Assembly (NCBI RefSeq): GCF_000331105.1
Contig: NC_020054.1
Span: 672,001 to 736,000, forward strand
Direction of reading: 5' to 3'
From: Fibrella aestuarina BUZ 2
GTDB taxonomy: Bacteria; Bacteroidota; Bacteroidia; Cytophagales; Spirosomataceae
Length of the DNA stretch: 64,000 nucleotides
Shown in pieces: positions 1 through 62,645 of the stretch. Every line of letters starts with the position of its first letter. The stretch's first letter is position 1. The position numbers and the translations under genes were made by a program. Under the pieces are notes generated by a model that was given only the letters and a program-made list of their open reading frames with translations, ran no database searches and was not told where the DNA came from.

Positions 1-232
1 TCCACTCGCCAAACAGCTCGATCACCACGGCCTGCCGTTCGTAGTTGGCGTAGAGAATCTTGCAATACAGCGTTTCGGAACCGATCTCGTCCCAAAGCGG
101 ATGGATGTAGTAGCCGTAAATGTCGTTCTCGTACTGCATCGTATTGTAGGTACGTTCGTAGAACGGCGACTGCTCATCGTCGGAAGCAGCATAGTACTTC
201 TCCCAGCCATAAAACGGTTCAATATCTTGCAT
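1..232 (-). CDS. Partial hypothetical protein, 3' end outside window
   Basis: The ATG is at 232-230 and the frame runs open to the window edge, giving 77 residues. The product is acidic and very rich in Tyr, Trp and Phe (begins MQDIEPFYGWEKYY, later YENDIYGYYIHPLW). It has no signal peptide or membrane segment. I do not recognise the family. It is transcribed away from the MFS gene at 503, with 270 bp of shared upstream DNA. One copy of the dispersed octamer lies inside it at 149. Confidence 0.6.
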   Translation of the reverse strand, partial: MQDIEPFYGWEKYYAASDDEQSPFYERTYNTMQYENDIYGYYIHPLWDEIGSETLYCKILYANYERQAVVIELFGEW

Positions 233-502
233 AATGGTTGAGTAACGCAGGCGAGCGGCCTACTGTTTCCGCCTTTTATTTCGAGCTCTCAATCAATAAA
301 AAGGTTAGCGAAATTGAGGTGGCCCGCCGGGGAAAAGGGCAAAAATAAGCCTTGCTAACGGCCCGGTAAGCGGGAAATCACCGAAATAGGAACGCAGGAA
401 TGATCTTAAATCTATTAAATGGATCGACTAACTAGTTAAACAATGAGTTGCTTAATCTAGCACATAGCCTGCCGGTTGGCAGGTTTTTTTGTGTACACGC
501 TG
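233..502. promoter_or_regulatory. Divergent intergenic leader region
   Basis: This 270-bp gap separates the leftward partial gene from the MFS gene at 503, so promoters for both should lie here. I see no convincing TAnnTTTG box. At 443-460 there is a five-codon ATG-to-TAG frame (MSCLI), directly followed by the terminator hairpin at 468-490. Confidence 0.4.
468..490 (+). terminator. Intrinsic-terminator-like hairpin before the MFS start
   Basis: A 6-bp stem CCTGCC/GGCAGG with a GGTT loop is followed by seven T residues (484-490). It lies 12 bp upstream of the ATG at 503 and no + strand gene precedes it in this gap. It therefore looks like a leader attenuator rather than the end of an upstream transcript. 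Confidence 0.6.
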
Positions 503-1753
503 ATGTTCAAGAATCCAAAACTGGCACTTGTGTACGGCATCACCTTTATTGATGCCGTCGTTGCGGGAGGGGTAGGCCCGCTGTTCAACAAATACACCGA
601 AACGCTGTCGGCCAAGCAGGTCTGGGTCATGGCTGGCTCGGCCCTGTTGCTGGGTCTGCAACTTGTGTTATCGCCCGTACTGGGGGCTTTATCCGACAAA
701 ATTGGGCGCCGCCCCGTGTTGATCGGTACCGCGCTTGGCTCCCTGCTGGCACCCTTTCTGTTGCTCCCGGTCAACGTGGGTGGTTACCTGAGCAACCGGG
801 CCGTTGAAGGCACAACCAATGGCATGTCGTCGGTGCTGCGCTCGGCGGTGGTCGACATGGCTCCCAAGCAGGACATGATGCAGCAAACGAGCATTCAGGG
901 AAGCATTACGGCGCTGGGCGCGTTGTTTGGCCCAGCGGTGGGCGGTGTGCTGATCATCGCGCTGGCGCAGGCCCGGTTCGATCCCATTCCGATCGTGATT
1001 ATGTGTATCGGGCTGGCGGTGCTCAATGTGGTGCTGACGTTCATCTTTAAAGAGACCAACCAAAAGGAGAAGCAGCCGGTCGAACTGAAAGAGTTGAAAG
1101 CAAAAGCCCTGAACGCGATCAAAGTGAAAACGCTCTGGGATCAACTCGCCGAGGTCGACAAGAAGCTAGAGGGCTTCAAAGACCTGTATATTTTGCAACT
1201 GCTGTCGTTGCTGGCGCTGGGCTACTACAATTACTTCATCGCCTACCTCATTGTGGGCGATCTGGGCCTGACGCCCAAACAGGCCTCGTTCTTCTTCATT
1301 TATTACAGCCTGATCACCTTTGCCACGAACCTGCTGTTTTTTCAGTTTGCGGTTAAGCACGTCAACCAACGGAAAATGCTGATCGTGCTGGCTTTCGTGG
1401 GCATCGGCGTGATGGGGCTGTATGCGTTCACGGGTGGGAGCGTGATGATGCTCTACATCGCGGCTACCGTCGATTCGCTGAGTATTGGTTTGCTCGCCGG
1501 GCTGATCTCGGGCCTCACCTCGCAACTCGTATCGAAAGGAGAGGGGCAGGGTAGTATTTTCGGCGATACGCAGGCGCTGGGCGGCGTGGCGAGTTTCATG
1601 GCGGCCGTGGCGACAACGCTGCTGACCGCCGTGGATGCGCGGGCGCCGTTTATCTTCTATGCGTTGGCGCTGGGCGTAATTGCCTACCGGGCCATCTACC
1701 TGCCCGAAGCGTCGGCGAAGGAAACCGAGCCGGCCAATCAGAACTACGTATAA
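503..1753 (+). CDS. MFS transporter, TetA/DHA1-like
   Basis: A 416-residue polytopic membrane protein of the major facilitator superfamily. The loop after TM2 carries the family motif A as LSDKIGRRPVLIG, and the second half (from about residue 225) repeats the TM pattern, giving roughly 12 segments with a Lys/Glu-rich central loop. I chose ATG 503 (MFKNPKL) because an earlier in-frame start would fall inside the terminator hairpin. The substrate cannot be read; TetA-like drug/proton antiporters are the nearest recognisable group. It converges on the lipid kinase with an 11-bp gap. Confidence 0.85.
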   Translation: MFKNPKLALVYGITFIDAVVAGGVGPLFNKYTETLSAKQVWVMAGSALLLGLQLVLSPVLGALSDKIGRRPVLIGTALGSLLAPFLLLPVNVGGYLSNRAVEGTTNGMSSVLRSAVVDMAPKQDMMQQTSIQGSITALGALFGPAVGGVLIIALAQARFDPIPIVIMCIGLAVLNVVLTFIFKETNQKEKQPVELKELKAKALNAIKVKTLWDQLAEVDKKLEGFKDLYILQLLSLLALGYYNYFIAYLIVGDLGLTPKQASFFFIYYSLITFATNLLFFQFAVKHVNQRKMLIVLAFVGIGVMGLYAFTGGSVMMLYIAATVDSLSIGLLAGLISGLTSQLVSKGEGQGSIFGDTQALGGVASFMAAVATTLLTAVDARAPFIFYALALGVIAYRAIYLPEASAKETEPANQNYV

Positions 1754-1764
1754 GCGGAAGCAGG

Positions 1765-2673
1765 TCAGAGGAGCACCAACAGGCTGGCCGGCAATACCCG
1801 AACCGTGCACTCGTTGCCCGGAAGCAGCACGGGTTCGCCATCGGCATGGGCCAGCAACGTATCTGGCCCATCCAGGTCAGGGGCATCGTCGGTGACTTTG
1901 GCCAATGTGGCCTGCCGGAGAGGCTGGCTTGCCCAGTAGGAAGATTGGTTGAGGGTTCGGTTGAAGAGCTGCCAACCGATCATGGCCACCATGTGGCCGG
2001 GGAAGGGCCGAATCAGGCATACATCGAGCAGGCCGTCGGAGACGTTAGCGTTGGGAGCAATCCAGGCGTTGTTGCCAAATTGGGCAGCGTTGGCGATGGT
2101 CAGCGAGAAAAGTGGCCCGGCAGGTACGTTATTGATGAGGTAACTGGCCGGTTGGTAATTCCAGAAGGCCTGATAGGTGGTGCGGACGTAGGTTTGTAAC
2201 CCACGCACGGGCTGTTTGGCAAATTCGTGGGCTACGTAGGCCTCGAAACCCAGGCCCGCAGTGCAGAAAAAAGGCAACTCGTTCAGTTCGGCGCTGTCGA
2301 TCAGAACGGGCCGCCCACTGATGGCTTTCTGAATGGCTTTTTGCGGGTTCATCGGGATCCCCAAGTGCCGCGCCAGCCCATTGCCCGACCCCATCGGGAT
2401 GATGCCCAGCGCCGTGGCCGTTTTGCGGAGCGCGCGGGCCGTTTCGTTGACGGTACCGTCGCCCCCCATGACCAGCACGCGCCGGATGCCGCTTCGGGCT
2501 GCCTGCGCGGCCAGCTCGGTGGCATGGCCCGCGTGGGTGGTGGTGATGATCTCCGGTTGAAAGCCCTGACGTTGCGCTTCGGCCACAATGTAGGTGCGAA
2601 GGGCCTCTTTCTGCGCCAGCGGCAACGTACCTGAAAGCGGATTGATAATAACGAGCAGGTCGGTGGCGGGCAT
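1765..2673 (-). CDS. Diacylglycerol kinase family lipid kinase (YegS/DagK-like)
   Basis: 302 residues with the DAGK catalytic domain. The nucleotide-binding GGDGTVNE lies near residue 70 and GSGNGLARHLG near residue 97, both diagnostic of the family. Members phosphorylate diacylglycerol or related lipids at the inner membrane surface; the exact lipid is not predictable. The length is usual for YegS/DgkB proteins. A 37-residue membrane peptide gene lies immediately upstream, three bases before its ATG, so the two are probably co-transcribed. Confidence 0.9.
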   Translation of the reverse strand: MPATDLLVIINPLSGTLPLAQKEALRTYIVAEAQRQGFQPEIITTTHAGHATELAAQAARSGIRRVLVMGGDGTVNETARALRKTATALGIIPMGSGNGLARHLGIPMNPQKAIQKAISGRPVLIDSAELNELPFFCTAGLGFEAYVAHEFAKQPVRGLQTYVRTTYQAFWNYQPASYLINNVPAGPLFSLTIANAAQFGNNAWIAPNANVSDGLLDVCLIRPFPGHMVAMIGWQLFNRTLNQSSYWASQPLRQATLAKVTDDAPDLDGPDTLLAHADGEPVLLPGNECTVRVLPASLLVLL

Positions 2674-2676
2674 CAG

Positions 2677-2790
2677 CTAGGCAAAAAACAGAAACATCAG
2701 GGCAATGAAAACGATAATGAAAATGTAATACCACCCGTCGGAGAAGACGTAGGGCTTATATTCCCGGTAAAAATCACGTAACCATTTCAT
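2677..2790 (-). CDS. 37-residue small membrane protein
   Basis: ATG at 2790-2788, TAG at 2679-2677. The product starts MKWLRDFYREYKPYVFSDGW, then has one strongly hydrophobic stretch (IFIIVFIALMFLFF) and ends at residue 37, so it is a single-pass small membrane protein. Its stop is three bases before the lipid kinase start, which supports translation as the first gene of a two-gene operon. The next gene on the + strand starts only 19 bp away, so the promoters must overlap coding sequence. Function is unknown. Confidence 0.65.
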   Translation of the reverse strand: MKWLRDFYREYKPYVFSDGWYYIFIIVFIALMFLFFA

Positions 2791-2809
2791 GCCCTAAAGT
2801 TCGCCAAAA

Positions 2810-3241
2810 ATGAGACACCTGCTTTGCCTTATCGTTCTACTCGCGCTCGCTCAATCGAGTATGGCCCAGACAGCGGCCGACCGCCAGGAAGTGCTTGGTA
2901 TTCTAAAACGCCAGAACAACGACTGGAACGCCGGCCGCGTCGAGCAGTTTATGGTTGGCTATTGGCCGTCCGATTCGCTAACGTTTGTGGGGAAGGCAGG
3001 GATTACCTACGGGTATGCGGCCACGCTGGCCAATTACAAAAAGCGCTACCCCGACCGGGCGTCGATGGGTACGTTGGCCTTCACGATTCTGAAGGTCGAC
3101 TTTCCCGGACCCAACGTGGCCTACGTGATCGGGAAGTGGCACCTGACCCGCCCGCAGATTGGCGACGTAGGTGGGCATTTTACGCTCTTATGGCGCAAGA
3201 TCAACGGTCGCTGGCTGATCGTCAGCGATCATTCTTCGTAG
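2810..3241 (+). CDS. Secreted NTF2-like protein (DUF4440/SnoaL)
   Basis: 143 residues with a Sec signal peptide (MRHLLCLIVLLALAQSSMA, cleavage before or after Q20). The mature part is a single NTF2-like cone domain: N-terminal helix with ILKRQNNDWNAG, then strand pattern ending FTLLWRKINGRWLIVSDHSS, typical of DUF4440. Such domains bind small ligands or act as enzymes; nothing fixes a substrate here. The gene ends exactly where an inverted repeat begins. Confidence 0.8.
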   Translation: MRHLLCLIVLLALAQSSMAQTAADRQEVLGILKRQNNDWNAGRVEQFMVGYWPSDSLTFVGKAGITYGYAATLANYKKRYPDRASMGTLAFTILKVDFPGPNVAYVIGKWHLTRPQIGDVGGHFTLLWRKINGRWLIVSDHSS

Positions 3242-3350
3242 AATGAATAATGTACGATGTACAATGTACAATGGCGCTGTCGGCAAGCGGGCTTTCGTAA
3301 GCGGAACGTCGCCCGGCCCATTGTACATTGTACATCGTACATTATTCATT
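3242..3350. repeat. Perfect 33-bp inverted repeat between convergent genes
   Basis: Arms 3242-3274 and 3318-3350 are exact reverse complements, separated by 43 bp. Each arm is made of the unit AATGTAC plus an ATGAATAAT end. The left arm begins one base after the stop of the NTF2-like gene, and the right arm overlaps the TAA of the DUF2795 gene. It could fold into a long RNA hairpin on either strand. A related repeat lies at 4701-4806. Confidence 0.9.
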
Positions 3351-3570
3351 AGTACTCGTCTTCGTTGAAGAAGAAGTCGTCTTTGGTAGGGTAATCGGGC
3401 CAGATTTCTTCGATGCTCTCGTAGGGTTGGCCGTCGTCTTCCAGTTCCTGAAGGTTTTCAACCACTTCCAGCGGGGCGCCCGACCGGATCGAGAAGTCAA
3501 TGAGTTCGTCTTTGGTGGCGGGCCAGGGAGCATCTTCCAGGTAAGATGCAAGTTCGAGAGTCCAGTACAT
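3349..3570 (-). CDS. DUF2795 family protein
   Basis: 73 residues, acidic, starting at ATG 3570 (MYWTLELASYLEDAPWPATK). The conserved core reads KDELIDFSIRSGAPLEVVENLQEL, followed by an Asp/Glu-rich tail ending FNEDEY. Proteins of this kind are widespread in Bacteroidota and have no assigned function. A longer frame upstream exists but is not conserved in character, and a promoter box at 3615-3622 sits about 45 bp before this ATG, supporting the shorter start. Confidence 0.8.
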   Translation of the reverse strand: MYWTLELASYLEDAPWPATKDELIDFSIRSGAPLEVVENLQELEDDGQPYESIEEIWPDYPTKDDFFFNEDEY

Positions 3571-3614
3571 AGTAGAAAAAATTACGCTTTTAAGGTCCGT
3601 ATTTTTTGAGGCTG

Positions 3615-3622
3615 CAAAAGTA
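3615..3622 (-). promoter_or_regulatory. Bacteroidota -7 box TACTTTTG for DUF2795 gene
   Basis: On the minus strand this reads TACTTTTG, matching the TAnnTTTG consensus used by the Bacteroidota primary sigma factor. A TTG lies 16 bp further upstream, slightly closer than the usual 19-21 bp. Confidence 0.55.
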
Positions 3623-3836
3623 AAAAAAAACACTAATGCAACACGATACGCTATTTGTTTTTCAAAACTGACTGTTAGCAGGTTATGGCATAAACGGCTT
3701 CGTGGGGGCAATGTTATAAAAACAGCAGAGAAAATGTACGGGTTAGATTACCGTTTATTAAGCGCTGTTCGCTTTTACGTTACTCCGCCTGTCGTTGTTA
3801 CCAAACCGCCGATATTTAGCAAGAAACACATCGATC

Positions 3837-4712
3837 ATGCCCTATACACTTCAAAATCAATACCTCCGGGTGGGTATTCGCGAGCAGGGAGCCGAACTAA
3901 CGTCGTTGTTCGACCTGACGACCCAAACCGAACATCTCTGGCAGGCCGACCCCAACGTGTGGCCCTGGCATGCGCCTAATCTTTTTCCTGTGGTAGGCGG
4001 CCAAACCAACGATCAACTGCTGATCGACGGACAGACGTACCCAATGAAACGCCACGGTTTTGCCCGAACCAGCGTCTTTACCTGCACAGAGGCCTCCGAC
4101 ACGCACGCCGTTTTTGAGCTGCGTTCGTCGGAAGCGACCAAACAGCAGTTTCCGTACGAGTTTGTGTTCGAGATCAGCTACACGCTCGACGACCGCGAAC
4201 TCGAAGTCAAATACCGGGTAAAGAACCCTACGTCGACCAACCTGTTTATGTCGTTGGGTGCGCACCCGGCTTTCAATGTGCCGTTTGCACCCGACGAAAC
4301 GTACTCCGATTACTACATTGAATTCGCTGACGATGAAGTATTGGAAACCAGCACGTTGGCGTCCAGTGGCCTGCTGTCGGGCGACAAACAACCGGTGGCG
4401 CTCGACAAGCGACACCTGAACCTGACGCCTGACCTGTTTGACAACGACGCGTTGGTGTTATTGACGCTCAAATCACGGAGCGTCACGTTGCGGAGCCATA
4501 AAAACCCACACCACATCCGCCTCGACTTTGCGCTGTTTCCGTATTTGGGCATCTGGGCCAAACCGGGTGCGCCTTTTGTGTGCATTGAACCCTGGCTGGG
4601 CGTCGCCGATACCGAAACCAAACCCCGCCCCATCGAAGGCAAGCAGGGCATTCAGCGCGTCACGCCCCGGAGCGCGTTCGTCGCGCATTACACGATATCG
4701 GTGAATGAATAA
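3837..4712 (+). CDS. Aldose 1-epimerase family protein (LacX/YeaD-like)
   Basis: 291 residues from ATG 3837 (MPYTLQNQYLRVGI). The features RVGIREQGAELTSL, WPWHAPNLFPVVGG and KRHGFARTSVF belong to the LacX branch of the galactose-mutarotase superfold, and GAHPAFNVPF carries the conserved active-site His. These enzymes interconvert alpha and beta anomers of hexoses or hexose phosphates in the cytoplasm; the substrate is not known for this branch. The C-terminus (VNE-stop) is encoded within the left arm of the repeat at 4701. Confidence 0.85.
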   Translation: MPYTLQNQYLRVGIREQGAELTSLFDLTTQTEHLWQADPNVWPWHAPNLFPVVGGQTNDQLLIDGQTYPMKRHGFARTSVFTCTEASDTHAVFELRSSEATKQQFPYEFVFEISYTLDDRELEVKYRVKNPTSTNLFMSLGAHPAFNVPFAPDETYSDYYIEFADDEVLETSTLASSGLLSGDKQPVALDKRHLNLTPDLFDNDALVLLTLKSRSVTLRSHKNPHHIRLDFALFPYLGIWAKPGAPFVCIEPWLGVADTETKPRPIEGKQGIQRVTPRSAFVAHYTISVNE

Positions 4713-4806
4713 TGTACAATGTATGATGTATAATGAGCCAGACGGCGTACTGCTAGCATACCCCATTGTACATTGTACATTATTCATTCACGTACATTAT
4801 TCATTC
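4701..4806. repeat. Inverted repeat related to the one at 3242
   Basis: The outer 21 bp at 4701-4721 are the exact reverse complement of 4771-4791, extended by imperfect pairing inward. A further partial copy of the same unit (ACATTATTCATTC) follows at 4794-4806. The repeat encodes the last residues and stop of both convergent genes: the epimerase on the left and GldA on the right (stop TAA at 4799-4797). Confidence 0.85.
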
Positions 4807-5750
4807 CCACCCGTCAGCGTCTTAAACACGCCTTCGAGGGAGGTTTCCTGCTGGCGGAGGCCAATGAGCGTGAGGTTGCGGTCGGCGGCGAGGCGGAAGA
4901 TGGCGGCGCGCAGGTCGGCGTTGGCGGGTGCCGTTACCTGATACTGCCCCTGTCCGGTGCGCTCGACGGCCGTCACGCCGGGCAGGCTGCGCAGGAGTGC
5001 TGGGTCGGGTAAATCGCGTTCAAATTCAGCCAGGTACGTTGCCGTATCCACGAGTTGACCGCCGCCGTACCGGGTACGCAGTTCCGCCAGGGGGCTGTCG
5101 GCGACGAGTTGGCCTCTGTTGATGATCACGACGCGGTCGCAGAGGGCCTCTACTTCCTGCATGATGTGGGTGGAAAAGAGCACGGTTTTGTCGCGACCGG
5201 CGGTTTTGATCACCTGCCGGATGTCGGCCAGCTGATTGGGGTCGAGGCCGGTGGTGGGTTCATCGAGGATCAATACGGGCGGGTTGTGCAATAGTGCCTG
5301 CGCCAGTCCTACGCGTTGCCGGTAGCCTTTCGACAGTTGCCCGATGCGTTTGTGCTGCTCGGGCCCCAGGCCCACCTGCTCGAGTACGTCGGCAACGCGT
5401 TGGCTCAGGGCCTGCCCGCTCAGGGTGTGGAGCCGCCCCGCGAACCGAAGGAATTCCTTCACGTACAGATCGAGGTAGAGCGGGTTGTGCTCGGGCAGGT
5501 AACCCACGCTGCGCCGAACGGCCATCGGGTCGGTTTGCACGTCGTGGCCGTTGACGAGCACCGTGCCGCTGCTGGGTGGCAGGTAGCCCGTGGCAATCTT
5601 CATGGTGGTGGATTTTCCGGCTCCGTTCGGCCCCAGAAAACCAACGATCTGCCCCGGTTCGACCGAAAACGTGAGGTCGTCTACGGCCCGGCGGGTATCG
5701 GTCCCGTTGGCGCTATATTGCTTGGTTAGGTTCTGTATCTGAATCGACAT
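4797..5750 (-). CDS. gldA: Gliding-motility ABC transporter ATP-binding protein GldA
   Basis: 317 residues starting at ATG 5750 (MSIQIQNLTKQY). Walker A GPNGAGKST is at about 40-48, the signature LSKGYRQR near 140 and Walker B LILDEP near 160. The stretch VGYLPEHNPLYLDLYVKEFL is characteristic of GldA, which with GldF and GldG forms an ABC exporter required for gliding in Flavobacterium johnsoniae. The permease genes are not in this window. Because some gliding bacteria lack these genes and some non-gliders keep them, motility cannot be concluded. A general ABC exporter ATPase remains possible. Confidence 0.82.
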   Translation of the reverse strand: MSIQIQNLTKQYSANGTDTRRAVDDLTFSVEPGQIVGFLGPNGAGKSTTMKIATGYLPPSSGTVLVNGHDVQTDPMAVRRSVGYLPEHNPLYLDLYVKEFLRFAGRLHTLSGQALSQRVADVLEQVGLGPEQHKRIGQLSKGYRQRVGLAQALLHNPPVLILDEPTTGLDPNQLADIRQVIKTAGRDKTVLFSTHIMQEVEALCDRVVIINRGQLVADSPLAELRTRYGGGQLVDTATYLAEFERDLPDPALLRSLPGVTAVERTGQGQYQVTAPANADLRAAIFRLAADRNLTLIGLRQQETSLEGVFKTLTGGNE

Positions 5751-5834
5751 TGCACGGAGATAACGTATTTTCGGCAAAAAACAGCAATTTTAGTCGTAGA
5801 GACGCAACTCTGTGCGTCGCCACGAACGCATTTC

Positions 5835-7472
5835 ATGAGCAATTCTATCCTTCGCAAAAAATCCGTAACACAGGCCGTTGGCGACACGGGCGGTCATCAG
5901 CTAACCAAAATTCTGGGGGTGCGTGATCTGACTTCCTTCGGAATTGCCGCCATCATTGGGGCTGGTATTTTCAGCACCATCGGGCGGGCGAGTCTGGCGG
6001 GTGGCCCGGCGGTGTCGCTGCTGTTTGTGTTTACGGCGATCGCCTGCGTATTTACGGCCCTGAGTTACGCCCAGTTTGCCAGCACCGTGCCCGTAAGTGG
6101 CAGCGCCTATACGTACGCCTACGTGTCGTTTGGTGAGATTTTCGCCTGGATCATCGGTTGGGCGCTTATTCTCGAATATGCCGTTTCCAACATGGTGGTG
6201 GCCATTTCCTGGTCCGAATACTTCACGTCGATGCTGGCGGGTTTCGGGGTGCATTTTCCCGACTATCTGGGTACTGACTATGGCTCGGCGGCCAGCGCGG
6301 CCGAAAAACTGCGAGCGGGCACCGAAACGCTGACCGACGGCGAAAAAATGCTGGCGGCGGCCTATGATGCCGCGCCAAGTATTGGTGGTTTGAAAGTGAT
6401 TCTGGATCTGCCCGCCGGGGTGATCACCGTCCTGATTACGTCGCTGGTGTACGTAGGAATTAAAGAGTCGCGGGCGGCGAGCAACCTGCTGGTGGTACTG
6501 AAACTCGCCGTGATTGCGCTGGTGATCGTAGCGGGAGCCTTCTTCGTGAAACCCGAAAACTGGTCGCCGTTTGCGCCCAACGGTATCAAAGGGGTGCTGG
6601 GGTCGGTGGCGTCGGTGTTTTTTGCCTTTATCGGCTTCGACTCCATCTCGACGACGGCCGAAGAGTGCAAAAACCCACAGCGCGATCTGCCCCGCGCCAT
6701 GCTATACTGCCTCGCCATCTGTACCACGCTGTACGTGCTGATTACGCTGGTGCTAACGGGCATGGTAAACTATAAGGAACTGGGCGTCGATGATCCGCTG
6801 GCCTACGTGTTTCAGAAAGTAGACATGAACTTCATTGCGGGCGTTATTTCGGTCAGTGCCGTGGTGGCCATTACGAGCGCGCTGCTGGTGTATCAGCTGG
6901 GCCAACCGCGTATCTGGATGACGATGAGCCGCGACGGGCTGCTGTGGCCCAAATTCGCCCAGATTCACCCACGTTTTCACACGCCTTCGTTCGCGACGAT
7001 TGTGACGGGCGCGCTGGTAGCCATTCCGTCGTTGTTTCTGGACATGCAGTTTTTCATCGACCTCACCAGCGTGGGTACGTTCTTCGCGTTCATTCTGGTG
7101 TGCGGCGGTATTTTGTACCTCGACAGCAGCGGGCTCTCGGCGCAGTCGAAGTTCAAAGTGCCTTACGTTAACGGCAAGTACATCATCGGGATCGGGTTTG
7201 TGCTGGCGTTGGCCTACGCGCTCAGTGCGGGCGCTTTCACGGCTGGCTTGGCCGAAAAACCCCTGCTGATCGTGTTCTGGCTTGTGTGGGGTACGTTGTC
7301 GGTGCTGGCCTTCCGGCGGAATTTCTCACTGCTCCCGGTGCTGGGTATCCTCACCAACCTCTACCTGATGACCGAACTGGGCATCACCAACTGGGTCATC
7401 TTCGTGATCTGGCTCGTGATCGGTCTGGTGCTGTATTTCTCGTACGGCTACCGCAAGAGCAAGCTGGCGTAG
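5835..7472 (+). CDS. APC family amino acid permease
   Basis: 545 residues with about 12-14 TM segments. The N-terminal GIAAIIGAGIFSTIG is the substrate-site GAG(I/V)F motif of the amino acid-polyamine-organocation family. The later FFAFIGFDSISTTAEECKNPQRDLP is typical of the cationic amino acid transporter (CAT/YfnA) branch. It would import amino acids across the inner membrane. The TM3-TM4 loop is enlarged by an Ala/Glu-rich segment (residues about 150-180). It ends seven bases before the perfect inverted repeat at 7479. Confidence 0.9.
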   Translation: MSNSILRKKSVTQAVGDTGGHQLTKILGVRDLTSFGIAAIIGAGIFSTIGRASLAGGPAVSLLFVFTAIACVFTALSYAQFASTVPVSGSAYTYAYVSFGEIFAWIIGWALILEYAVSNMVVAISWSEYFTSMLAGFGVHFPDYLGTDYGSAASAAEKLRAGTETLTDGEKMLAAAYDAAPSIGGLKVILDLPAGVITVLITSLVYVGIKESRAASNLLVVLKLAVIALVIVAGAFFVKPENWSPFAPNGIKGVLGSVASVFFAFIGFDSISTTAEECKNPQRDLPRAMLYCLAICTTLYVLITLVLTGMVNYKELGVDDPLAYVFQKVDMNFIAGVISVSAVVAITSALLVYQLGQPRIWMTMSRDGLLWPKFAQIHPRFHTPSFATIVTGALVAIPSLFLDMQFFIDLTSVGTFFAFILVCGGILYLDSSGLSAQSKFKVPYVNGKYIIGIGFVLALAYALSAGAFTAGLAEKPLLIVFWLVWGTLSVLAFRRNFSLLPVLGILTNLYLMTELGITNWVIFVIWLVIGLVLYFSYGYRKSKLA

Positions 7473-7478
7473 GGAAAA

Positions 7479-7571: not shown

Positions 7572-7572
7572 G

Positions 7573-54687: not shown

Positions 54688-54708
54688 GTCATCCTCGGTT
54701 TACGAATC

Positions 54709-54733: not shown

Positions 54734-54807
54734 ATAGCCTGTCAGGTACGTTGTATCCGTGTTTGTAACGCCGCTGTAACCGGTGTTGCCAATCAACGAA
54801 GACGTGT

Positions 54808-55734: not shown

Positions 55735-55814
55735 GATGAAGTGATAGCCAAACGACTGGTGCAGCTATAAGCAAAAAGAAGCGGGCTTTGTTTCGTTACG
55801 ATCGGTTCGGTGTA

Positions 55815-56075: not shown

Positions 56076-56216
56076 GGCAATTTCTTGGGTATCTATTAAT
56101 GCTTCCTCGAGTGGTCGGAACGTCAGCCAACGATCGAATATACTAACGTCCTGCTTTATCGCTATGGCCAAACAGCCTCCTTGATTGCAAACCGATGCAG
56201 AGGTGCCAACCAGATA

Positions 56217-56396
56217 CTAGTTTTTCTTCAGTTTGTGTCGAAAAAGCAGAAAGAGCACCAGAAACGTCAGTTCACCGATCAGCGCCCATGCCTGTGATTC
56301 GATTTTCCAATGGAAAGGCACCCATTGGCCACTCAAATAAGCGACGAACAGATAACTAACCAGTAAACTAATAGCGACAAGCCCAAGTGTTCTCAT
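56217..56396 (-). CDS. 59-residue small membrane protein
   Basis: ATG 56396-56394, TAG 56219-56217. Two hydrophobic segments, GLVAISLLVSYLFVAYL and AWALIGELTFLVLFLLF, are joined by a short WVPFHWKIESQ loop, and the C-terminus is basic (RHKLKKN), indicating a hairpin with both ends in the cytoplasm. It lies upstream of the zinc-ribbon gene in the same direction with a 141-bp gap. Function unknown. Confidence 0.65.
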   Translation of the reverse strand: MRTLGLVAISLLVSYLFVAYLSGQWVPFHWKIESQAWALIGELTFLVLFLLFRHKLKKN

Positions 56397-56627
56397 AGAC
56401 GTGTGTTATACGGTTCGACCCTTGCCACGTTGTCGTCCTTGCCATCCCATCAGTCAACAGGCAATCGTCAGCATACCAGGATTGACACTATGAAGCTATA
56501 CCGGTATGGATGGCTTTCTGTTTGGCAGATAGCGAGTTTTTGACTTGAAGCGCTGACGGCCAAGGTGTAAATGGCATGAATAAGGCTTGTTTTTGTGCAA
56601 AACGATAAGTTCGCTACTGACTTACAA

Positions 56628-56660
56628 AAAAGGCCGTCTCCAAGTAGGAAACGGCCTTTT
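56628..56660. terminator. Bidirectional intrinsic terminator downstream of fadN
   Basis: AAAAGGCCGT (56628-56637) pairs exactly with ACGGCCTTTT (56651-56660). T-runs exist on both strands, so it can end the minus-strand fadN transcript. Confidence 0.85.
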
Positions 56661-56664
56661 CGGT

Positions 56665-56699
56665 CAAACCTATAAGGTCTTCAAGACCTTATAGGTTTG
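56665..56699. repeat. Perfect 17-bp palindrome with one-base centre
   Basis: The left arm 56665-56681 (CAAACCTATAAGGTCTT) and right arm 56683-56699 are exact reverse complements around base 56682. Such AACCTATAAGGTCTT palindromes recur between genes in Bacteroidota. It sits 10 bp from the fadN stop. Confidence 0.9.
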
Positions 56700-56708
56700 T
56701 TGCTTTTC

Positions 56709-59144
56709 TTAATTTCGCAGGGGTTTGCCGCCTTGCAGCAGGCTTTGGATGCGTTCCAGGGTCTTCTTCTCGCCGGTGAGCGATAGGAAGGCTTCGCGCT
56801 CCAGATCGAGGAGGTATTTCTCCGACACCAGTTGCGGGCTGCTGAGGTCGCCACCGCAGATCACATAGGCTAATTTGTTGGCAATCTTCTCGTCGTGCTC
56901 CGAGATGAAGCGCCCCATCTTCATGGCCGTCACACCCGCCCGGAATAAGGCAATACCCGTCTTACCCTGCACCTTAATGTCGGTGCGTTGCTTGGGTTGC
57001 GTATACCCGTTTTCGGCGAGCTCGATGGCGACCTGCTTGGCCTCGGCAATCTGGCGGCTCCGGTTCAGCACGATCTGCGCCGACGGAAGCAGGTAGTTCA
57101 TCTCGCGGGCCTCCTGTGCCGACGTCGACACTTTCGCCGTGGCGATGTTCATGAAGGCCGATTGCAGGATGTTCAGTTCGGGGTCGCCGGTCTGGTACAG
57201 GTCCGAGCAACGCGCAGCCATTTCTTTGGTGCCGCCCCCGGCCGGGATCAGCCCCACACCGACCTCCACAAGACCCATGTATGTTTCTGAGTGTGCCACG
57301 ACGCGGTCGCAGTGGAGGTTGAGTTCGCAGCCGCCACCCAGCGCCAGGGAGTGCGGTGCGCCCACCACCGGAATCGCCGAATAGCGCGCCCGCATCATGG
57401 CCTGCTGGAAACCGGCAATCATCAGGTTGATTTCGTCGTATTCCTGCTCCAGGGCAAACATGAACAGCGTGGCCAGGTTGGCACCCGCCGAGAAGGCCTC
57501 CGACGACTCATTGCCGATGACCAAGCCCCGGAAATCCTTTTCGGCCAGCGAAATGGCTTTGTTGAGTCCCTCGATCACCTCCGCCCCAAACGTATTCATC
57601 TTCGAGCGGAATTCGAGGTTGATGATGCCGTCGCCGAGATCGTAAATGGCTGAACCCGCGTTTTTCCAGATAACGTTATCGCTCAGGCTTTCCAGAATGA
57701 TAAACGACTCGGTGCCGGGGATGGTCTTGTACGCCTTCGACGGGATGTCGTAGTACTGTTTTTTACCTCCTTCGGTCTTGTAGAAACTCGTAGCGCCGCT
57801 GGCGACCATGTCGTACACCCACTGCGCGGGCTTCCGGTCGAGTTTCTCCATCATGTCGATACCGGCCTGCGCGCCAATGGCATCCCACGTCTCGAACAGG
57901 CCCATCTGCCAGCCAAAGCCCGCTTTGATGGCCTCGTCGATCTTGTACAGTTCGTCGGCGACTTCGGGGATGCGGTTGGTGGCATACTGGAAGCCGTCGG
58001 CAAACGTGCGGCGGTAAAACTCACCCGCTTTATCGGTACCGGCCAGCAGAATCGGGAAACGTTTCCGCAGGCTTTCGACCGCCTTGGTGCTGTCGAGCGT
58101 CGCGAATTTTACCTTCTGCGACGGCTCATACTCAAACGTTTTGAGGTTCAGGGCCAGAATGACCGACTTCCCCTTTTCGTCTTTGACTTTCTTATAAAAA
58201 CCCTGCCCCGTTTTGTCGCCGAGCCACTTGTTGTCGCTCAGTTTCTGCATGGTCGAGGGCAGTTCAAACGCCTTGTGCGACTCGTCGTACTCGAGCTTCA
58301 CCAGGTTGCTCGCCACGTTGACGGTCGTGTCCAGCCCCACCACATCCGACAGCCGGAACGTACCTGACTTGGGCCGCCCCACCACCGGCCCGGTCAGCTT
58401 ATCGACTTCTTCCACGCTCAGGCCCATCTCTTCGGACACCCGGATCGTCTGGATCAGCGAGTGAATGCCCAATCGGTTGGCAATGAAGCCCGGCGTGTCT
58501 TTGGCCAGCACGGTGGTTTTGCCCAGATACAGATCGCCGTAGCTCATCAGAAAATCGATGATGGCGGGGTCGGTCTCGGGGCCGGGGATGATTTCGAGCA
58601 GGCGTAGGTAGCGCGGTGGGTTAAAGAAGTGCGTACCGCAGAAATGCCGCCTGAAATCGTCGGACCGGCCTTCCACCAGCAAATGCATCGGAATGCCCGA
58701 CGTGTTGGACGTAATCAACGTACCTGGCTTGCGGAACTGCTCCACCCGCTCGTACAGGGAGCGCTTGATGTCGAGCCGTTCCACCACCACCTCGATCACC
58801 CAGTCGTAGGTAGCGATGTCTTTGAGGTTATCGTCGAAGTTGCCGAGCTTGACCCGATCGGCGAATTTGGGCGTGTAGAGCGAGGCTGGCGTGGCCTTAA
58901 GCATCGTTTGCCAGGCGTCGTTGACGGGCCGGTTGCGTACGGCGGGGCTGTCGGTGGTGAGGCCTTTGGCGGCTTCGGCGGCGTTGGGTTCACGCGGGAC
59001 GATGTCGAGCAGCAGTACGTCGACGCCAATGTTGGCGAAGTGCGCGGCAATGCGTGAGCCCATAATGCCAGAACCCAGCACAGCTACGCGCCGGATATTG
59101 CGGTTTTTCGTCTGGGTTTGTGGTTTTGCAAGTGTTGCTTCCAT
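56709..59144 (-). CDS. fadN: Bifunctional 3-hydroxyacyl-CoA dehydrogenase / enoyl-CoA hydratase (FadN type)
   Basis: 811 residues. The hydroxyacyl-CoA dehydrogenase part comes first: NAD motif VLGSGIMGSRIA (22-33), GTHFFNPPRYLRLLEI and DTPGFIANRLG. The hydratase domain follows (about 500-700) with SAGANLATL and the oxyanion region LALGGGCELN. This order is that of Bacillus FadN, opposite to E. coli FadB. It carries out two steps of beta-oxidation. The expected thiolase and acyl-CoA dehydrogenase genes are not next to it in this window. Its two octamer copies lie in the dehydrogenase half. Confidence 0.93.
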   Translation of the reverse strand: MEATLAKPQTQTKNRNIRRVAVLGSGIMGSRIAAHFANIGVDVLLLDIVPREPNAAEAAKGLTTDSPAVRNRPVNDAWQTMLKATPASLYTPKFADRVKLGNFDDNLKDIATYDWVIEVVVERLDIKRSLYERVEQFRKPGTLITSNTSGIPMHLLVEGRSDDFRRHFCGTHFFNPPRYLRLLEIIPGPETDPAIIDFLMSYGDLYLGKTTVLAKDTPGFIANRLGIHSLIQTIRVSEEMGLSVEEVDKLTGPVVGRPKSGTFRLSDVVGLDTTVNVASNLVKLEYDESHKAFELPSTMQKLSDNKWLGDKTGQGFYKKVKDEKGKSVILALNLKTFEYEPSQKVKFATLDSTKAVESLRKRFPILLAGTDKAGEFYRRTFADGFQYATNRIPEVADELYKIDEAIKAGFGWQMGLFETWDAIGAQAGIDMMEKLDRKPAQWVYDMVASGATSFYKTEGGKKQYYDIPSKAYKTIPGTESFIILESLSDNVIWKNAGSAIYDLGDGIINLEFRSKMNTFGAEVIEGLNKAISLAEKDFRGLVIGNESSEAFSAGANLATLFMFALEQEYDEINLMIAGFQQAMMRARYSAIPVVGAPHSLALGGGCELNLHCDRVVAHSETYMGLVEVGVGLIPAGGGTKEMAARCSDLYQTGDPELNILQSAFMNIATAKVSTSAQEAREMNYLLPSAQIVLNRSRQIAEAKQVAIELAENGYTQPKQRTDIKVQGKTGIALFRAGVTAMKMGRFISEHDEKIANKLAYVICGGDLSSPQLVSEKYLLDLEREAFLSLTGEKKTLERIQSLLQGGKPLRN

Positions 59145-59157
59145 AAGATTAAAGGGG

Positions 59158-59269
59158 GATGGGACGCGGATGACGCTGATGAACCGGATCTACACGGATT
59201 TTCGATTTGGCTAGGTGTCAAAAAAGAATCCGAATCAATCCGTTCCATCGGCGTCATCCGCGTTCCATC
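59158..59269. repeat. Imperfect inverted repeat, ACGCGGATGACG family
   Basis: Arms 59158-59200 and 59227-59269 match in inverted orientation through GATGG-ACGCGGATGACGC-GATG and an ACGGATT end. The right arm encodes the last residues and TGA stop of the nucleotidyltransferase-like gene. The left arm lies just upstream of the fadN start. Confidence 0.8.
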
Positions 59270-59727
59270 AGTTTACTAAGTTCATCAACGTCGCCAAGGT
59301 CTTTGGCCCGACCAGTAGCGCGCTTTTCGGTGATTAAATCGTTTAGATGAATGACGCGAAAGGGTACATCGTCAAACGTAGCCGGGCGGGCACGAGCGAA
59401 GCAGGCATCAAAGTCCGAGTCGGCAAATGCTTTCAGTGCATGACCCATGTCGAGTGTGAAGCCCTGTTTACCGACTGCGACGGTTGTCCAGCCAAAAAGG
59501 AGCGGTACATGCTGAAGAAGCTCCGCGCCAACCACGTCGTTTTCCGTCAACGCGTTGATTAGCTTCGCTTTGTTGGTTTCGCCAACCCGGATCCAGAGGG
59601 CTAGGTCTTCCGTTGCCCGAACGTACCCGTGAACGATGTTTGCCATCCCACCAACCAGTAAATACTGAACGCCATACTTGTTCAGACTGCGGAATAGCTG
59701 CTGTACATCGTCCTGCGAAATGTCCAT
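59254..59727 (-). CDS. Nucleotidyltransferase-fold protein with altered metal site (DUF6036/AbiEii-like)
   Basis: 157 residues from ATG 59727 (MDISQDDVQQLF). YLLVGGMANIVHGYVRATEDLALWI (shown in parts: LLVGGMAN, HGYVRATEDLALWI) is the N-terminal nucleotidyltransferase signature, at about 22-46. The expected DxD metal pair reads D-L-A: the second Asp is Ala (codon GCC where GAC would be expected). A frame extending upstream to 59838 lacks a good start. It lies between MarR and fadN in the same direction. It may be inactive or act through binding. Confidence 0.75.
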   Translation of the reverse strand: MDISQDDVQQLFRSLNKYGVQYLLVGGMANIVHGYVRATEDLALWIRVGETNKAKLINALTENDVVGAELLQHVPLLFGWTTVAVGKQGFTLDMGHALKAFADSDFDACFARARPATFDDVPFRVIHLNDLITEKRATGRAKDLGDVDELSKLMERG

Positions 59728-59847
59728 TGGTTTTGGCGGATTAGTTGGGTTGCTCCGGTAAAACACGCTCGCGACCCGCATCAGTCCGACGAAGCGGTCA
59801 AGTAAAGGCTGAGCGCGGATGGGCAAAACCGGTTGCATAGGCGGGCG

Positions 59848-60318
59848 TTACACGACGTCTTCCACCGGGGCGTTGGTGGCTTTGAGTTTGTTGTTTTCCT
59901 CTTCGACCAGCAGGTTGATCTCTTTGATGACATCGAAAAAGACGACGAGCTTATCGAGGGGAATTTTTTCGCGGATCATTTTATTGAATTCGATGACGCC
60001 TTCGCGGGCCATTTCGCGCTTGGCGCGCCCTTCGTCGGTGAGGTAGATACGCACAAAGCGCTTATCGGCCTCGTCGGTTTCGCGCCGGATGAGCCCGCGC
60101 TCTTCCAGGCCCTTCAGCATCCGGACCAGGCTACGCGGCTCCATGCCCAGCAAGGGGCCAATTTTGGTCGCTGGTGTGCCCTGTTCCGTGTCAATGTTAA
60201 GCAGCACGTAGCCCGTTGCCATCGTCAGGCCGAAGCTACCGGCATGGGCGTTGTACATGCGGGAGATCGCATGCCAGGCCCATTTTATATGGAAATCAAC
60301 GGTTTTCTCTTTCTTCAT
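59848..60318 (-). CDS. MarR family regulator, likely of fatty-acid degradation
   Basis: 156 residues from ATG 60318 (MKKEKTVDFH); a GTG at 60333 would add five. The winged helix spans about 50-105 with TPATKIGPLLGMEPRSLVRML and the wing EADKRFVRIYLT. The wing Arg/Asp pattern is typical of MarR. It precedes the FadN-type gene, and in this phylum MarR regulators of similar sequence lie with beta-oxidation genes. A perfect 14-bp palindrome at 60407-60420 overlaps its promoter. Confidence 0.87.
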   Translation of the reverse strand: MKKEKTVDFHIKWAWHAISRMYNAHAGSFGLTMATGYVLLNIDTEQGTPATKIGPLLGMEPRSLVRMLKGLEERGLIRRETDEADKRFVRIYLTDEGRAKREMAREGVIEFNKMIREKIPLDKLVVFFDVIKEINLLVEEENNKLKATNAPVEDVV

Positions 60319-60381
60319 CTGGTGTCGGTTCACGTACCGATAGCGACGCTGTTCGTTTCGCCGCTGCCACCGTAACCTTCA

Positions 60382-60389
60382 CAAAACTA
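60382..60389 (-). promoter_or_regulatory. -7 box TAGTTTTG for the MarR gene
   Basis: Minus-strand TAGTTTTG fits TAnnTTTG and lies 64 bp before the ATG at 60318. The palindrome at 60407-60420 begins 17 bp upstream of it, over the -33 position. Confidence 0.65.
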
Positions 60390-60406
60390 CAATTTTTTCA
60401 GAAATA

Positions 60407-60420
60407 GTATGCATGCATAC
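60407..60420. promoter_or_regulatory. MarR operator candidate, perfect palindrome GTATGCATGCATAC
   Basis: A 14-bp perfect palindrome occupying the -33 region of the MarR promoter. Position, size and symmetry fit a MarR dimer site and autorepression. I found no second exact copy near fadN, fabG or the MaoC gene. Confidence 0.75.
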
Positions 60421-60509
60421 GGTTTTTGAAAAAACGATGCGTGGCAAGTAATCAATCCGCTGCCAGTCGACTGACCGCGTATCGCTCATCACGTACCACG
60501 CATCGTTCG

Positions 60510-61247
60510 TCAGGAAGCCTGCCCGCCGTTGACGCCCAGTACCTGTCCGTTTACGAACGAGGCTTCGTCGGAGGCCAGGTAAAGGTAAGCGTAGGCAATG
60601 TCCAGCGGTTCGCCCATTCGTTTGGCGGGAATCAGTTGAATAGTGGCCTGCCGGGCTTCTTCGGGCATGGCGTCGGTCATATCGGTGCGGATGAAGCCGG
60701 GGGCCACCGCATTGGCTGTGATACCTTTCGAGCCCAGTTCTTTAGCCCAAGTGCGGCACATGGCCACCACTCCCGCTTTAGTGGCGGCGTAGTTGGTCTG
60801 CCCAAAATTACCGTGAATACCAACTACCGACGAGGTGCAGATAATGCGCCCGTACTTCTGCTCGACCATGTGCGGCACCACCGCTTTGGTGCAATTGAAC
60901 ACGCCCGTGAGGTTCACGTCGATCACCTGTTGCCACTCCAGGTGGCTCATTTTCAAAAGCGTACGGTCGCGGGTGATGCCCGCGTTGTTGACCAGAATAT
61001 CGATCTGCCCGTATTGCTCGAGCACCGCCCGAACGGCCTCTTCCACGCTGGGTACGTCGGTCACGCTGACCCGCATGAACGTGGCCTTGTAGCCTTGATC
61101 GCGCAAGGTCTGGGCCGTGTCTTCGCCCTCGTCGAGCATATCCCAGATCACGACGGCAGCACCCTCGCGGGTGAAGAGTTCGGCGGCGGCCCGGCCAATG
61201 CCGCGAGCCCCGCCGGTGATAATGGCCGTTTTATTGGCTAAACGCAT
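60510..61247 (-). CDS. 3-oxoacyl-[ACP/CoA] reductase, FabG/PhaB-like
   Basis: 245 residues from ATG 61247 (MRLANKTAIITGG). SDR motifs: TGGARGIG (10-17), NNAG near 88, Ser in CTSSVVG and YAATKAG (about 152). VNGQVLGVNGG ends the chain. It reduces 3-oxoacyl-ACP or acetoacetyl-CoA. The MaoC hydratase 61 bp upstream in the same direction suggests an R-3-hydroxyacyl-CoA role, as in PhaB/PhaJ pairs. Confidence 0.88.
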   Translation of the reverse strand: MRLANKTAIITGGARGIGRAAAELFTREGAAVVIWDMLDEGEDTAQTLRDQGYKATFMRVSVTDVPSVEEAVRAVLEQYGQIDILVNNAGITRDRTLLKMSHLEWQQVIDVNLTGVFNCTKAVVPHMVEQKYGRIICTSSVVGIHGNFGQTNYAATKAGVVAMCRTWAKELGSKGITANAVAPGFIRTDMTDAMPEEARQATIQLIPAKRMGEPLDIAYAYLYLASDEASFVNGQVLGVNGGQAS

Positions 61248-61308
61248 AAGGTAACAGGGTTTATGGTAGGTAGAACCGTAAGGGCGGCTTGCGGCGCTAC
61301 GGCGAAAA

Positions 61309-61779
61309 TCACTCAAATAACAGCATAATCAGCTCCGCGACGCAAGCGGGCTTTTGCTGACCGTCGACCTCAAAGACGCACTCGATAATGGCCCGAACGC
61401 CAGTCGATTCTTCGTTGGCATTCTGGGGCTCCACGTGGTGCAGCCAGGCTTTCATGCGCAGGCGGCTGCCGCTGGGCACAGCGTTGGTAAACCGGATCTT
61501 GTTGGCGCCGTAGTTGATCGCCATCTTCACCGACTCGACCCCGTACACGTCGGCCAGCAGGCGCGGCGCCAGCGAGAGCGTTAGAAAACCGTGGGCGATG
61601 GTGGTTTGGTAGGGCGATTCGCGGGCAGCCCGTTCGGTGTCGAGGTGAATCCACTGGTGATCGCCGGTGGCTTCGGCAAATTGCTGAATCTGTTCCTGAC
61701 TGATTGTAACCCAGTCAGTGGTGCCGAGTTCTTGCCCGGCATGGGCCGTAAAAGCGGCGAGGTTAGGGAATGTTTGCAT
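61309..61779 (-). CDS. MaoC family dehydratase (R-specific enoyl-CoA hydratase-like)
   Basis: 156 residues, one hot-dog domain. The hydratase-2 motif is present: FAEATGDHQWIHLD (about 30-43, catalytic Asp and His) and TIAHGFLTLSL. It hydrates trans-2-enoyl-CoA to R-3-hydroxyacyl-CoA. It is followed by the FabG-like gene, forming a two-gene unit at the end of the fatty-acid cluster. Confidence 0.88.
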   Translation of the reverse strand: MQTFPNLAAFTAHAGQELGTTDWVTISQEQIQQFAEATGDHQWIHLDTERAARESPYQTTIAHGFLTLSLAPRLLADVYGVESVKMAINYGANKIRFTNAVPSGSRLRMKAWLHHVEPQNANEESTGVRAIIECVFEVDGQQKPACVAELIMLLFE

Positions 61780-61844
61780 GATAACTGTTGGATACTGGCT
61801 ACTGGAAACCGGATATTTGATGTCTAACCAAGCGTCGCCCGTCT

Positions 61845-62645
61845 GTGCCCAGTGAGTCCCATCCGATAGCCAGTCTGCATTACATCAAATACGGAACGGG
61901 CCCGACAATCTGGCTGGCGTTGCACGGTATCGGGCAGGATGCCAGCTGCTTTGCCCCGTTCGGCGAGCGGTTGGCCCAAACGCACACCATCTACTCACTG
62001 AACCTGCCTTTCCACGGGCCGGACGCCGACGGGCCGGACGCCGAATGGCCTGCTACCATAACCAAACCCTACTGGCAAAGGTTATTGGCCGATTTTCTGT
62101 TGGCCCACCAGATCGACCGTTTTTCGGTGGCGGGGTTCAGCATGGGTGGGCGGTTTGCGCTGGTCACGGCCGAGTTGTTTACCGACCGGATCGATCAGTT
62201 GATCCTGCTGGCGCCCGACGGGGTCACCGACGATCCCTGGTTCAGGACAGCCACCAGCACCCGGGCGGGGCAGGCGGTGCTCCGGTTTATGTTAAATCAT
62301 ACCGGCTTCTTTCACCAGGTCGGGACGGGGTTGGTACGGCTGAAACTGCTGAAACCGGGGCTGTTGCGTTTTGCCGAAGCAACGCTGAAAACCCCCGCGC
62401 AACGTACCCAGATTTACCGGTCCTGGACGGCCTTTCACCCGCTGACGATCGACGTACCCGCGCTGGCGCAACGGCTACGTACCCAGCAGGTAGCGGTGTG
62501 CCTGATTCTGGGCAAATTTGACGCCGTGCTCCCCGCGGCCTACACGCAGCCGTTGTTGCGGGCGCTGCCCGAGTGCCGCCTCGTTGTGCTGCCAACGGGC
62601 CATACGTCGCTGGTGAGGCGGGCGGCCGACGAAATAATGCTATAA
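61845..62645 (+). CDS. Alpha/beta hydrolase
   Basis: 266 residues from GTG 61845 (no ATG is near). LALHGIGQDASCF gives the oxyanion loop, GFSMGG (about 97-102) the nucleophile Ser, GKFDAVLP the acid and TGHTSLV the His. The triad is complete. The substrate is unknown; cap-domain text (HTGFFHQVGTGLVRLKLL) is not diagnostic. A small tandem duplication GPDADGPDAEW occurs near residue 58. Confidence 0.85.
   Translation: MPSESHPIASLHYIKYGTGPTIWLALHGIGQDASCFAPFGERLAQTHTIYSLNLPFHGPDADGPDAEWPATITKPYWQRLLADFLLAHQIDRFSVAGFSMGGRFALVTAELFTDRIDQLILLAPDGVTDDPWFRTATSTRAGQAVLRFMLNHTGFFHQVGTGLVRLKLLKPGLLRFAEATLKTPAQRTQIYRSWTAFHPLTIDVPALAQRLRTQQVAVCLILGKFDAVLPAAYTQPLLRALPECRLVVLPTGHTSLVRRAADEIML

Follow-up and report, generated by a model that had tools for sequence, protein, structure and literature searches.

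Genome-wide iteration of the asymmetric word YRGGTACGT and of a sister dialect in Spirosomataceae: possible sites of a strict reader of double-stranded DNA

A stretch of 64,000 nucleotides from Fibrella aestuarina BUZ 2 (NC_020054.1, positions 672,001–736,000; hereafter the window) carries 71 copies of a short asymmetric word, YRGGTACGT (Y, pyrimidine; R, purine). The word recurs at 0.96 per kb (425 copies) in 444 kb of chromosome, made up of the window and 19 other 20-kb samples; one further sample, L003, overlaps the window and is excluded from pooled counts. Several relatives carry a sister dialect, YRNTACGT, in even larger numbers. Our best guess, which we hold tentatively, is that YRGGTACGT is the site of a strict reader of double-stranded DNA, employed in pilus-free uptake or transfer of DNA between cells.

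The initial annotation of the window had described 50 copies of the octamer GGTACGTT and likened them to a DNA uptake sequence (DUS). Exactly 50 are present, from 149–156 to 62401–62408, against a mean of 1.54 and a maximum of 5 in dinucleotide shuffles (n = 100) and 5.2 expected when a third-order Markov model is trained on the window; the core GGTACGT occurs 88 times. The annotation had also proposed counts in the whole genome and in relatives. In the 6.94-Mb genome (contigs of 6.78 Mb and 162 kb) the octamer occurs 2029 + 2074 = 4103 times, far above the Markov expectation and 33-fold more often than the reversed word used as control (63 + 60 = 123). Its flanks in the window are biased as annotated, with G 28, A 18, C 4 and T 0 on the 5′ side and G 34, C 12, A 4 and T 0 on the 3′ side. 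The annotated unit RGGTACGTTS fits 42 of the 50 copies, but the 444 kb of chromosome show that YRGGTACGT describes the unit better, the next bases being mostly T and then G; no long flanking motif was seen around it.

The two bases that precede GGTACGT were compared with an order-3 expectation from which the sites were masked. TG (TGGGTACGT) was found 164 times where 3.4 were expected, CA (CAGGTACGT) 187 times where 5.0 were expected, CG 49 times against 5.2, and TA 25 times against 1.5. The excess is 18-fold overall and as much as 49-fold for TGGGTACGT; CC, GG, GA and GC rise slightly, and the remaining eight steps are close to chance. In the sister species G112, CA prevails over TG before GGTACGT (90 vs 30). 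TG and CA, which are one step on opposite strands, are thus preferred jointly over CG and TA and not as independent letters, from which we infer that the putative reader senses double-stranded DNA, at a flexible pyrimidine-purine step. Forms of GGTACGT with one mismatch stand at chance (67 vs 61 and 68 vs 81 expected after TG and CA, under the same model; 113 vs 91 and 20 vs 29 after CG and TA). An excess of the exact word only is what would be left by mutation plus selection or drive on that word alone. Taken with the alignments below, this implies either strict reading of double-stranded DNA or biased transfer.

Placement of the sites is nearly indifferent to genes. Open reading frames (ORFs), called heuristically, cover 91% of the 444 kb and contain 374 of the 425 sites in all six frames, whereas 50 synonymous-codon shuffles gave a mean of 35 coding sites (s.d. 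5.3, maximum 49), about 10-fold fewer; codon usage is therefore not the explanation. This bears out the annotation, which had seen copies in coding and intergenic DNA, in different frames and in both orientations, and had discounted a protein constraint; nor is the enrichment one of codon pairs in a single frame. In 604 kb of the present genome, plasmid included, intergenic DNA has 0.95 sites per kb and genes have 0.89, the sites are distributed evenly along genes, and antisense copies outnumber sense copies (268 vs 212, p 0.012). Among 49 close pairs (<60 bp, 444 kb), 26 are inverted (12 with heads outward, 14 inward) and 23 direct, so terminator-like pairs are not a rule; the pairing in terminators that had been annotated comes down to two intergenic inverted pairs in the window. 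Leading and lagging strands share the sites 190:186 in 20 samples of 20 kb (L003 included; origin and terminus inferred from GC skew), which rejects an orienting sequence of the FtsK orienting polar sequence (KOPS) type. The locally G-rich strand carries 210 sites and the other 166. The largest gap, 9.5 kb without a site (L019:668-10192), has 34% GC and is perhaps a recent arrival.

Close relatives differ sharply in the word. Three of the five genomes of the genus are very high in GGTACGTT (4103, 3265 and 4379 copies; 26–33 times the reversed word), namely the present one (G000) and the high congeners G110 and G112; the low congeners G111 and G113 are modest (650 and 708 copies; 4.5–5 times). 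De novo counts in relatives revealed the second dialect, YRNTACGT, which is less often followed by G. The two dialects share YR and TACGT and differ in the spacer, two bases (GG) in one and a single base (N) in the other. In 220 kb of G197, YRNTACGT occurs 1114 times against 184 expected and YRGGTACGT is near chance (16 vs 12); in the present genome it is YRNTACGT that stands at chance (212 vs 213). All four YR steps are enriched in G197, 3.6- to 8-fold, every other step reaches at most about 1.5-fold, and one-mismatch cores, at 0.57–1.18 of expectation, show no enrichment. A survey of 222 genomes of the family placed seven at 5–14 times control for YRNTACGTY: G197 (26,616 copies; control 1882), G214 (14,350), G216 (13,968), G186 (11,437), G114 (7808), G115 (7800) and G204 (6648). 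G209, G200, G212 and G205 are intermediate (2.9–3.8 times) and the remainder of the family reaches at most about 2.3 times; no strong excess (at most about 1.5 times) was seen in the 300 genomes of other families within an order survey of 391. The first stretches sampled from G114 (L033, L034) were weak for the sister word, and later stretches showed it. Sister-word density is 4.43 per kb between and 5.01 within genes in G197, and 2.24 and 3.21 per kb in G216; some reading frames are favored, yet all six are used. In a tree of the single SdhA locus, with 7 of 27 forks unresolved, the YRNTACGT-high genomes are scattered among low ones.

Judged from aligned sequence, sister-word sites are shown to have been mostly gained in high lineages, one by one, by point mutation. 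Two locus sets were used, ortholog alignments (first set) and the SdhA and AddB loci (second set, which overlaps the first at SdhA, only AddB being new), with same-composition words as control; sites gapped in the partner were counted apart (11, 13 and 13 for G197-G181, G197-G195 and G214-G182). Cores of G197 are kept in low G181 at 10/93 sites (control 29%) and in low G195 at 5/91 (31%), and those of G214 in low G182 at 8/73 (26%). In the second set, where six low genomes that are themselves related were pooled, kept cores fall below control in all seven high genomes: G197 27/184 (27%), G216 22/152 (27%), G214 22/133 (27%), G186 22/101 (32%), G204 12/64 (27%), G114 11/70 (24%) and G115 12/64 (25%). 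Since cores are kept less than control words in low genomes, gain in the high lineages is indicated, and loss of the sister word in low species is disfavored. The few words that low genomes do have are retained in G197 at 9/13 (first set) and 21/27 (second set). Upkeep is seen between the high genomes G114 and G115, which keep 62–66% of cores against 42% for control; the smaller second set gave no such effect (6/14 and 7/12 vs 48–49%). For the genus's own word, the two high congeners, at 79% DNA identity, have 33 of 42 aligned sites intact against 26% for control (p 1e-12). Sites of the present genome are kept in high congeners at 0/5 (first set) and 4/10 (second set; control 19%) and in low congeners at 1/9 and 1/8; loss of the own word in the two low congeners may have occurred, the data being thin.

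The changes that made sites are broad. In the G197-G181 comparison, about 19 kb of 140 kb aligned, 94 of 663 G197 sites had a gap-free counterpart, and the G181 base was taken as older. Nine of these counterparts were already sites, and 20, 38, 15, 10 and 2 needed 1, 2, 3, 4 and 5 changes. All twelve substitution types, transitions and transversions alike, occur at all seven constrained positions, mostly at one to three per site, and the spectrum remains broad with two agreeing outgroups. Insertion of a ready-made unit was rejected, alignable ortholog sites differing by substitutions. Third codon positions take about the same share of changes inside sites (132/182) as outside (2605/3471). Codons with a changed amino acid amount to 16.7% inside and 11.9% outside sites in G197, 14.4 and 15.7% in G214, 27 and 16% in G112, and 22 and 20% in G110. 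As read from these alignments, the force is moderate, genome-wide, and selective or driving; it is neither a mutator nor an inserted element.

Plasmids carry the words as well. Contig C1 has 114 YRGGTACGT in 160 kb (0.71 per kb), and its tra genes align at 73–78% with a plasmid of Fibrella sp. ES10-3-2-2 (CP155472.1), two 49-kb pieces of which contain 22 and 26 copies against 2.4 and 2.2 expected. Both Fibrella plasmids (C1, L236–L243; CP155472.1, L348 and L349) show looser GGTACGT contexts, unlike the three chromosomes sampled, and a 2.4- to 4.2-fold excess of YRGTACGT, which stands at 0.6- to 1.1-fold in those chromosomes; they look polyglot, as if past hosts had had more than one dialect. 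A plasmid piece of Spirosoma sp. KNUC1025 has YRNTACGT in excess (52 vs 22 expected). A piece of S. linguale pSLIN01 (L350) shows no excess of YRNTACGT (20 vs 24) and holds 7 YRGGTACGT against 1.8 expected, and in Runella pRUNSL02 neither dialect is in excess. As a separate observation, CP155472.1 encodes a DNA methyltransferase, a helicase and a Piwi-domain protein in a row (L348:18119-24918); the methyltransferase-helicase part aligns with C1, and the Piwi gene lies outside the eight longest alignments.

We rank uptake or transfer first because it best accounts for a force that acts alike on genes, gaps and plasmid, favors an asymmetric word and comes in dialects. A putative sequence-strict reader would bind YRGGTACGT on double-stranded DNA and act in DNA uptake or in transfer between cells. 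Fragments with the exact word would enter and replace homologous DNA more often; transmission drive, as for DUS and uptake signal sequences (USS), would raise the word everywhere at once; and the word would label as self any DNA that shares the dialect. Related readers that differ in specificity would account for the two dialects, YR + GG + TACGT and YR + N + TACGT. Given the lack of a type IV pilus ATPase (see below), the machine would be pilus-free, a type described for Riemerella, which belongs to the same phylum. More tentative still is the proposal that the Spirosomataceae possess a pilus-free, sequence-specific uptake or transfer with switchable dialects, in which a reader of YR-spacer-TACGT was gained or switched on repeatedly and the genome was rewritten by transmission drive. 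Were this true, the dialects would limit gene flow from one species to another, that of plasmids included, and the reader would be a new kind of receptor for a self-DNA signal. We know of self-DNA signals only in Neisseriaceae and Pasteurellaceae, and the present one would be the first outside them. No earlier report of these words was found in the sampled part of the open-licence PubMed Central literature, PMC2843746 included.

Several observations weigh against uptake or transfer. Among the families searched, no reader protein was found. One candidate, DUF5689, was rejected, being present in 2/10 high and 14/20 mid or low family genomes, a weakly opposite trend (Fisher p 0.019, without kinship correction). 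No full-length match to the type IV pilus/type II secretion ATPase (PF00437) was found in 25 genomes, among them all ten of the high group; 14 of the 25 have a weak match, and three of these reach the cut-off, with 24–26 bits over about 60 of 370 positions. The sites show no preference for intergenic DNA, terminators or gene ends. Gaps between them are close to exponential with some surplus of short ones, where uptake should saturate. Sites common to high genomes exceed control (G197 41/95 vs 30%, G216 39/76 vs 28%) even though the tree places low genomes between them; either permissive positions would have acquired the word in parallel, or the word would be old and would have been removed from low lineages. 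For the own word, gain is weakly shown, with 3/42 G110/G112 sites kept in low congeners against about 17% (p 0.06) in the first set and 2/20 against 19% in the second. At about 5 sites per kb, G197 is denser than any DUS known to us, and no transformation experiment with these species has come to our notice. The scatter of the sister word over the tree also counts here, as DUS dialects follow the species tree (Frye 2013). A canonical uptake sequence is thus not supported: the pilus ATPase, graded mismatches and terminator pairing all fail. The annotated likeness to DUS and USS persists in density, non-palindromic form, lack of polarity, dialects and the presence of ComEC, and is lost in the pilus ATPase, graded mismatches and terminator preference. 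ComEC, one of the competence proteins that the annotation had suggested looking for, is present in 5/5 genomes of the genus, high and low alike. At the ComEC loci (gene and flanks, L061–L065), G110 and G112 have about 39% DNA identity to the present genome and G111 and G113 58%; the comEC gene or its neighborhood may have been replaced within the genus.

Next after uptake or transfer we place a site of the kind of the highly iterated palindrome HIP1. Here a DNA enzyme or nucleoid protein of the cell (a methyltransferase, topoisomerase, condensin or similar) would act at the word, and its activity would render each site slightly beneficial or favored by repair; this we regard as rather unlikely, though it is the main rival. 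All-or-none specificity and a clean YR code, with the 3.6- to 8-fold steps of G197, resemble an enzyme; a HIP1-like iteration and a methylation site were among the annotated options. Other words are reported to have taken the place of HIP1 sporadically, a methyltransferase to match accompanying each of them, and some genomes are reported to be high in HIP1 without a matching enzyme (Elhai 2015), so that lack of an enzyme is not decisive. Yet HIPs are palindromic, and GGTACGT or TACGT with a one-sided YR are not. Moreover, two methyltransferase families do not track the word in 18 genomes and were rejected as reader: PF01555 has no match in high G110, G197, G186 and G114, nor in low G198, and PF00145 has none in high G214, G216, G186, G204 and G114 or in low G113, G195 and G198. 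PF07669 enzymes are in 18/18 genomes, high and low. A Chi-like recombination hotspot read by AddAB, with a switch of specificity followed by acquisition of a new Chi, is improbable. Chi is short, non-palindromic and over-represented, and an AddB-like protein (a 987–1077-aa frame with PF12705) occurs in 18/18 genomes, singly except for a second long one in G190. Within the genus, moreover, an AddB tree splits low from high: the branch of G111 and G113 (L297, L298) is long (0.49) and separate from that of the three high genomes (98/98), whereas at the SdhA locus the present genome joins the low pair (91/84); a long-branch warning on the AddB tree applies to this split. On the other side stand the replication-strand ratio of 190:186, the interaction between the YR bases (TG and CA over TA and CG), which points to reading of double-stranded DNA where Chi is read as a single strand, and the finding that no AddB column separates the seven high from the six low genomes of the other two genera (C-terminal part, about 790 aa).

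Two further accounts fare worse. A site-specific mutator or mismatch-repair bias that writes the word would fit a genome-wide and lineage-wise pattern, as such processes can act in both ways. However, the broad spectrum of changes at all seven constrained positions, together with near-misses that are not clearly depleted, means that no single precursor was converted, and we reject this account as highly improbable. An artefact of codons, codon pairs or composition could appeal to the 374 of 425 sites in genes and to the frames favored in the sister dialect; it is refuted by the 10-fold excess over synonymous shuffles, the use of all six frames, the similar intergenic density and the 33-fold excess over the reversed word.

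Table 1 Word sites and site clusters in the window
Feature	Position	Strand	Basis or note
Array of 71 YRGGTACGT (88 GGTACGT, 50 GGTACGTT)	147..63405	both	word scan of window
YRGGTACGT 9-mer starts, part 1	147, 2121, 3066, 5031, 7072, 7698, 8216, 8246, 8320, 10732, 11102, 12555, 14261, 15560, 15721	+	
YRGGTACGT 9-mer starts, part 2	16508, 18024, 18158, 22524, 22955, 25185, 25794, 26609, 27898, 31657, 32464, 33873, 34613, 34923, 37628	+	
YRGGTACGT 9-mer starts, part 3	40010, 43570, 46270, 46459, 47200, 47865, 49389, 51617, 53813, 54647, 54743, 55911, 56056, 61049, 63392	+	
ACGTACCYR 9-mer starts, part 1	2625, 4035, 19665, 23382, 25292, 27658, 29938, 30996, 31972, 32265, 33829, 35896, 39278	-	
ACGTACCYR 9-mer starts, part 2	41415, 41643, 43545, 47805, 53133, 53788, 58358, 58718, 59621, 62402, 62452, 62477, 63397	-	
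Inverted site pair, terminator-like, T-rich stem, intergenic	43545..43578	both	pair list, outside ORFs
Inverted site pair, intergenic	53788..53821	both	pair list, ORF map
Overlapping pair of sites, one on each strand, forming a 14 bp palindrome	63392..63405	both	site list
Three direct copies (8216, 8246, 8320) inside ORF 7573-8448 (- strand)	8216..8328	+	
Three direct copies (62402, 62452, 62477) inside ORF 61845-62645 (+ strand)	62402..62485	-	

Two other features of the window were noted. A repeat family, dispersed or tandem, is represented by GAATGAGTGAAA, AATGTACAATG and ATGAATAATGTA with five copies each, and relatives hold its variants AATGAGTGA and AAAGAGYGA (L024–L032, L216–L221, L249–L255). 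Positions 33197-34504 (- strand) encode an McrC-like protein (PF10117, 5.4e-61) with no McrB-like neighbor; the upstream ORF (34514-35371) has a META domain only, and the downstream ORF is a trehalase.

USS of H. influenzae lie at about 0.8 per kb, a density similar to that of the present word, which also resembles the USS of Pasteurellaceae in that one orientation is commoner in genes (antisense 268, sense 212). In known uptake sequences one orientation is likewise commoner in genes, USS are biased to gene ends (van Passel 2008), and the drive and the mismatch forms are graded (Bakkali 2007). The present word is unlike USS in having no graded mismatches, gene-end bias or long flanking motif, and the mismatches in particular add to the case against uptake or transfer. 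With the DUS of Neisseriaceae it shares thousands of copies, a short non-palindromic form and family-level dialects with a common core; among DUS, wadDUS differs from AT-DUS by one inserted base, much as the spacers of the two present dialects differ by one base, and kingDUS has 5918 copies in 2.4 Mb, to which kingDUS-like mismatch forms add 21% (Frye 2013). It differs from DUS in occurring in genomes without type IV pilus ATPase, one-mismatch excess or inverted-pair excess, and in a sister dialect that sits in scattered lineages instead of following the species tree. HIP1 of cyanobacteria is comparable in density, at roughly one site per kb or more (values near one per 1000 nt are reported), and also undergoes sporadic replacement by alternate words (Elhai 2015). 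HIP1, a palindrome, usually goes with methyltransferases that share its specificity, whereas the present word is asymmetric and the two methyltransferase families do not follow it. Like Chi, it is a short, asymmetric, over-represented word accompanied by an AddB-like protein; unlike Chi, it has no strand polarity, and its excess (18-fold, with 49-fold for TGGGTACGT) is far above the level known to us for Chi. Riemerella, which also belongs to the Bacteroidota and has ComEC, is competent without pilus homologs, and DUF5689 is a domain of one of its competence proteins, a surface candidate (Huang 2021). The resemblance stops there, as the term "uptake sequence" has 0 occurrences in the main text of that paper and the DUF5689 candidate does not track the present word. 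If the word guides uptake, it would set the gene-exchange partners in a large environmental family through a machine without pili; if it is a HIP1-like site instead, it would give a workable handle on a puzzle on record since 1995 (Robinson et al., cited in Elhai 2015). What makes DUS, USS, HIP1 and Chi difficult to take apart is their presence in most members of a lineage. In the present family the word count changes abruptly from one close relative to the next, and there are two dialects; a comparison of complete genomes can therefore lead to the reader gene, and dates can be put on the gain and upkeep of the sites.

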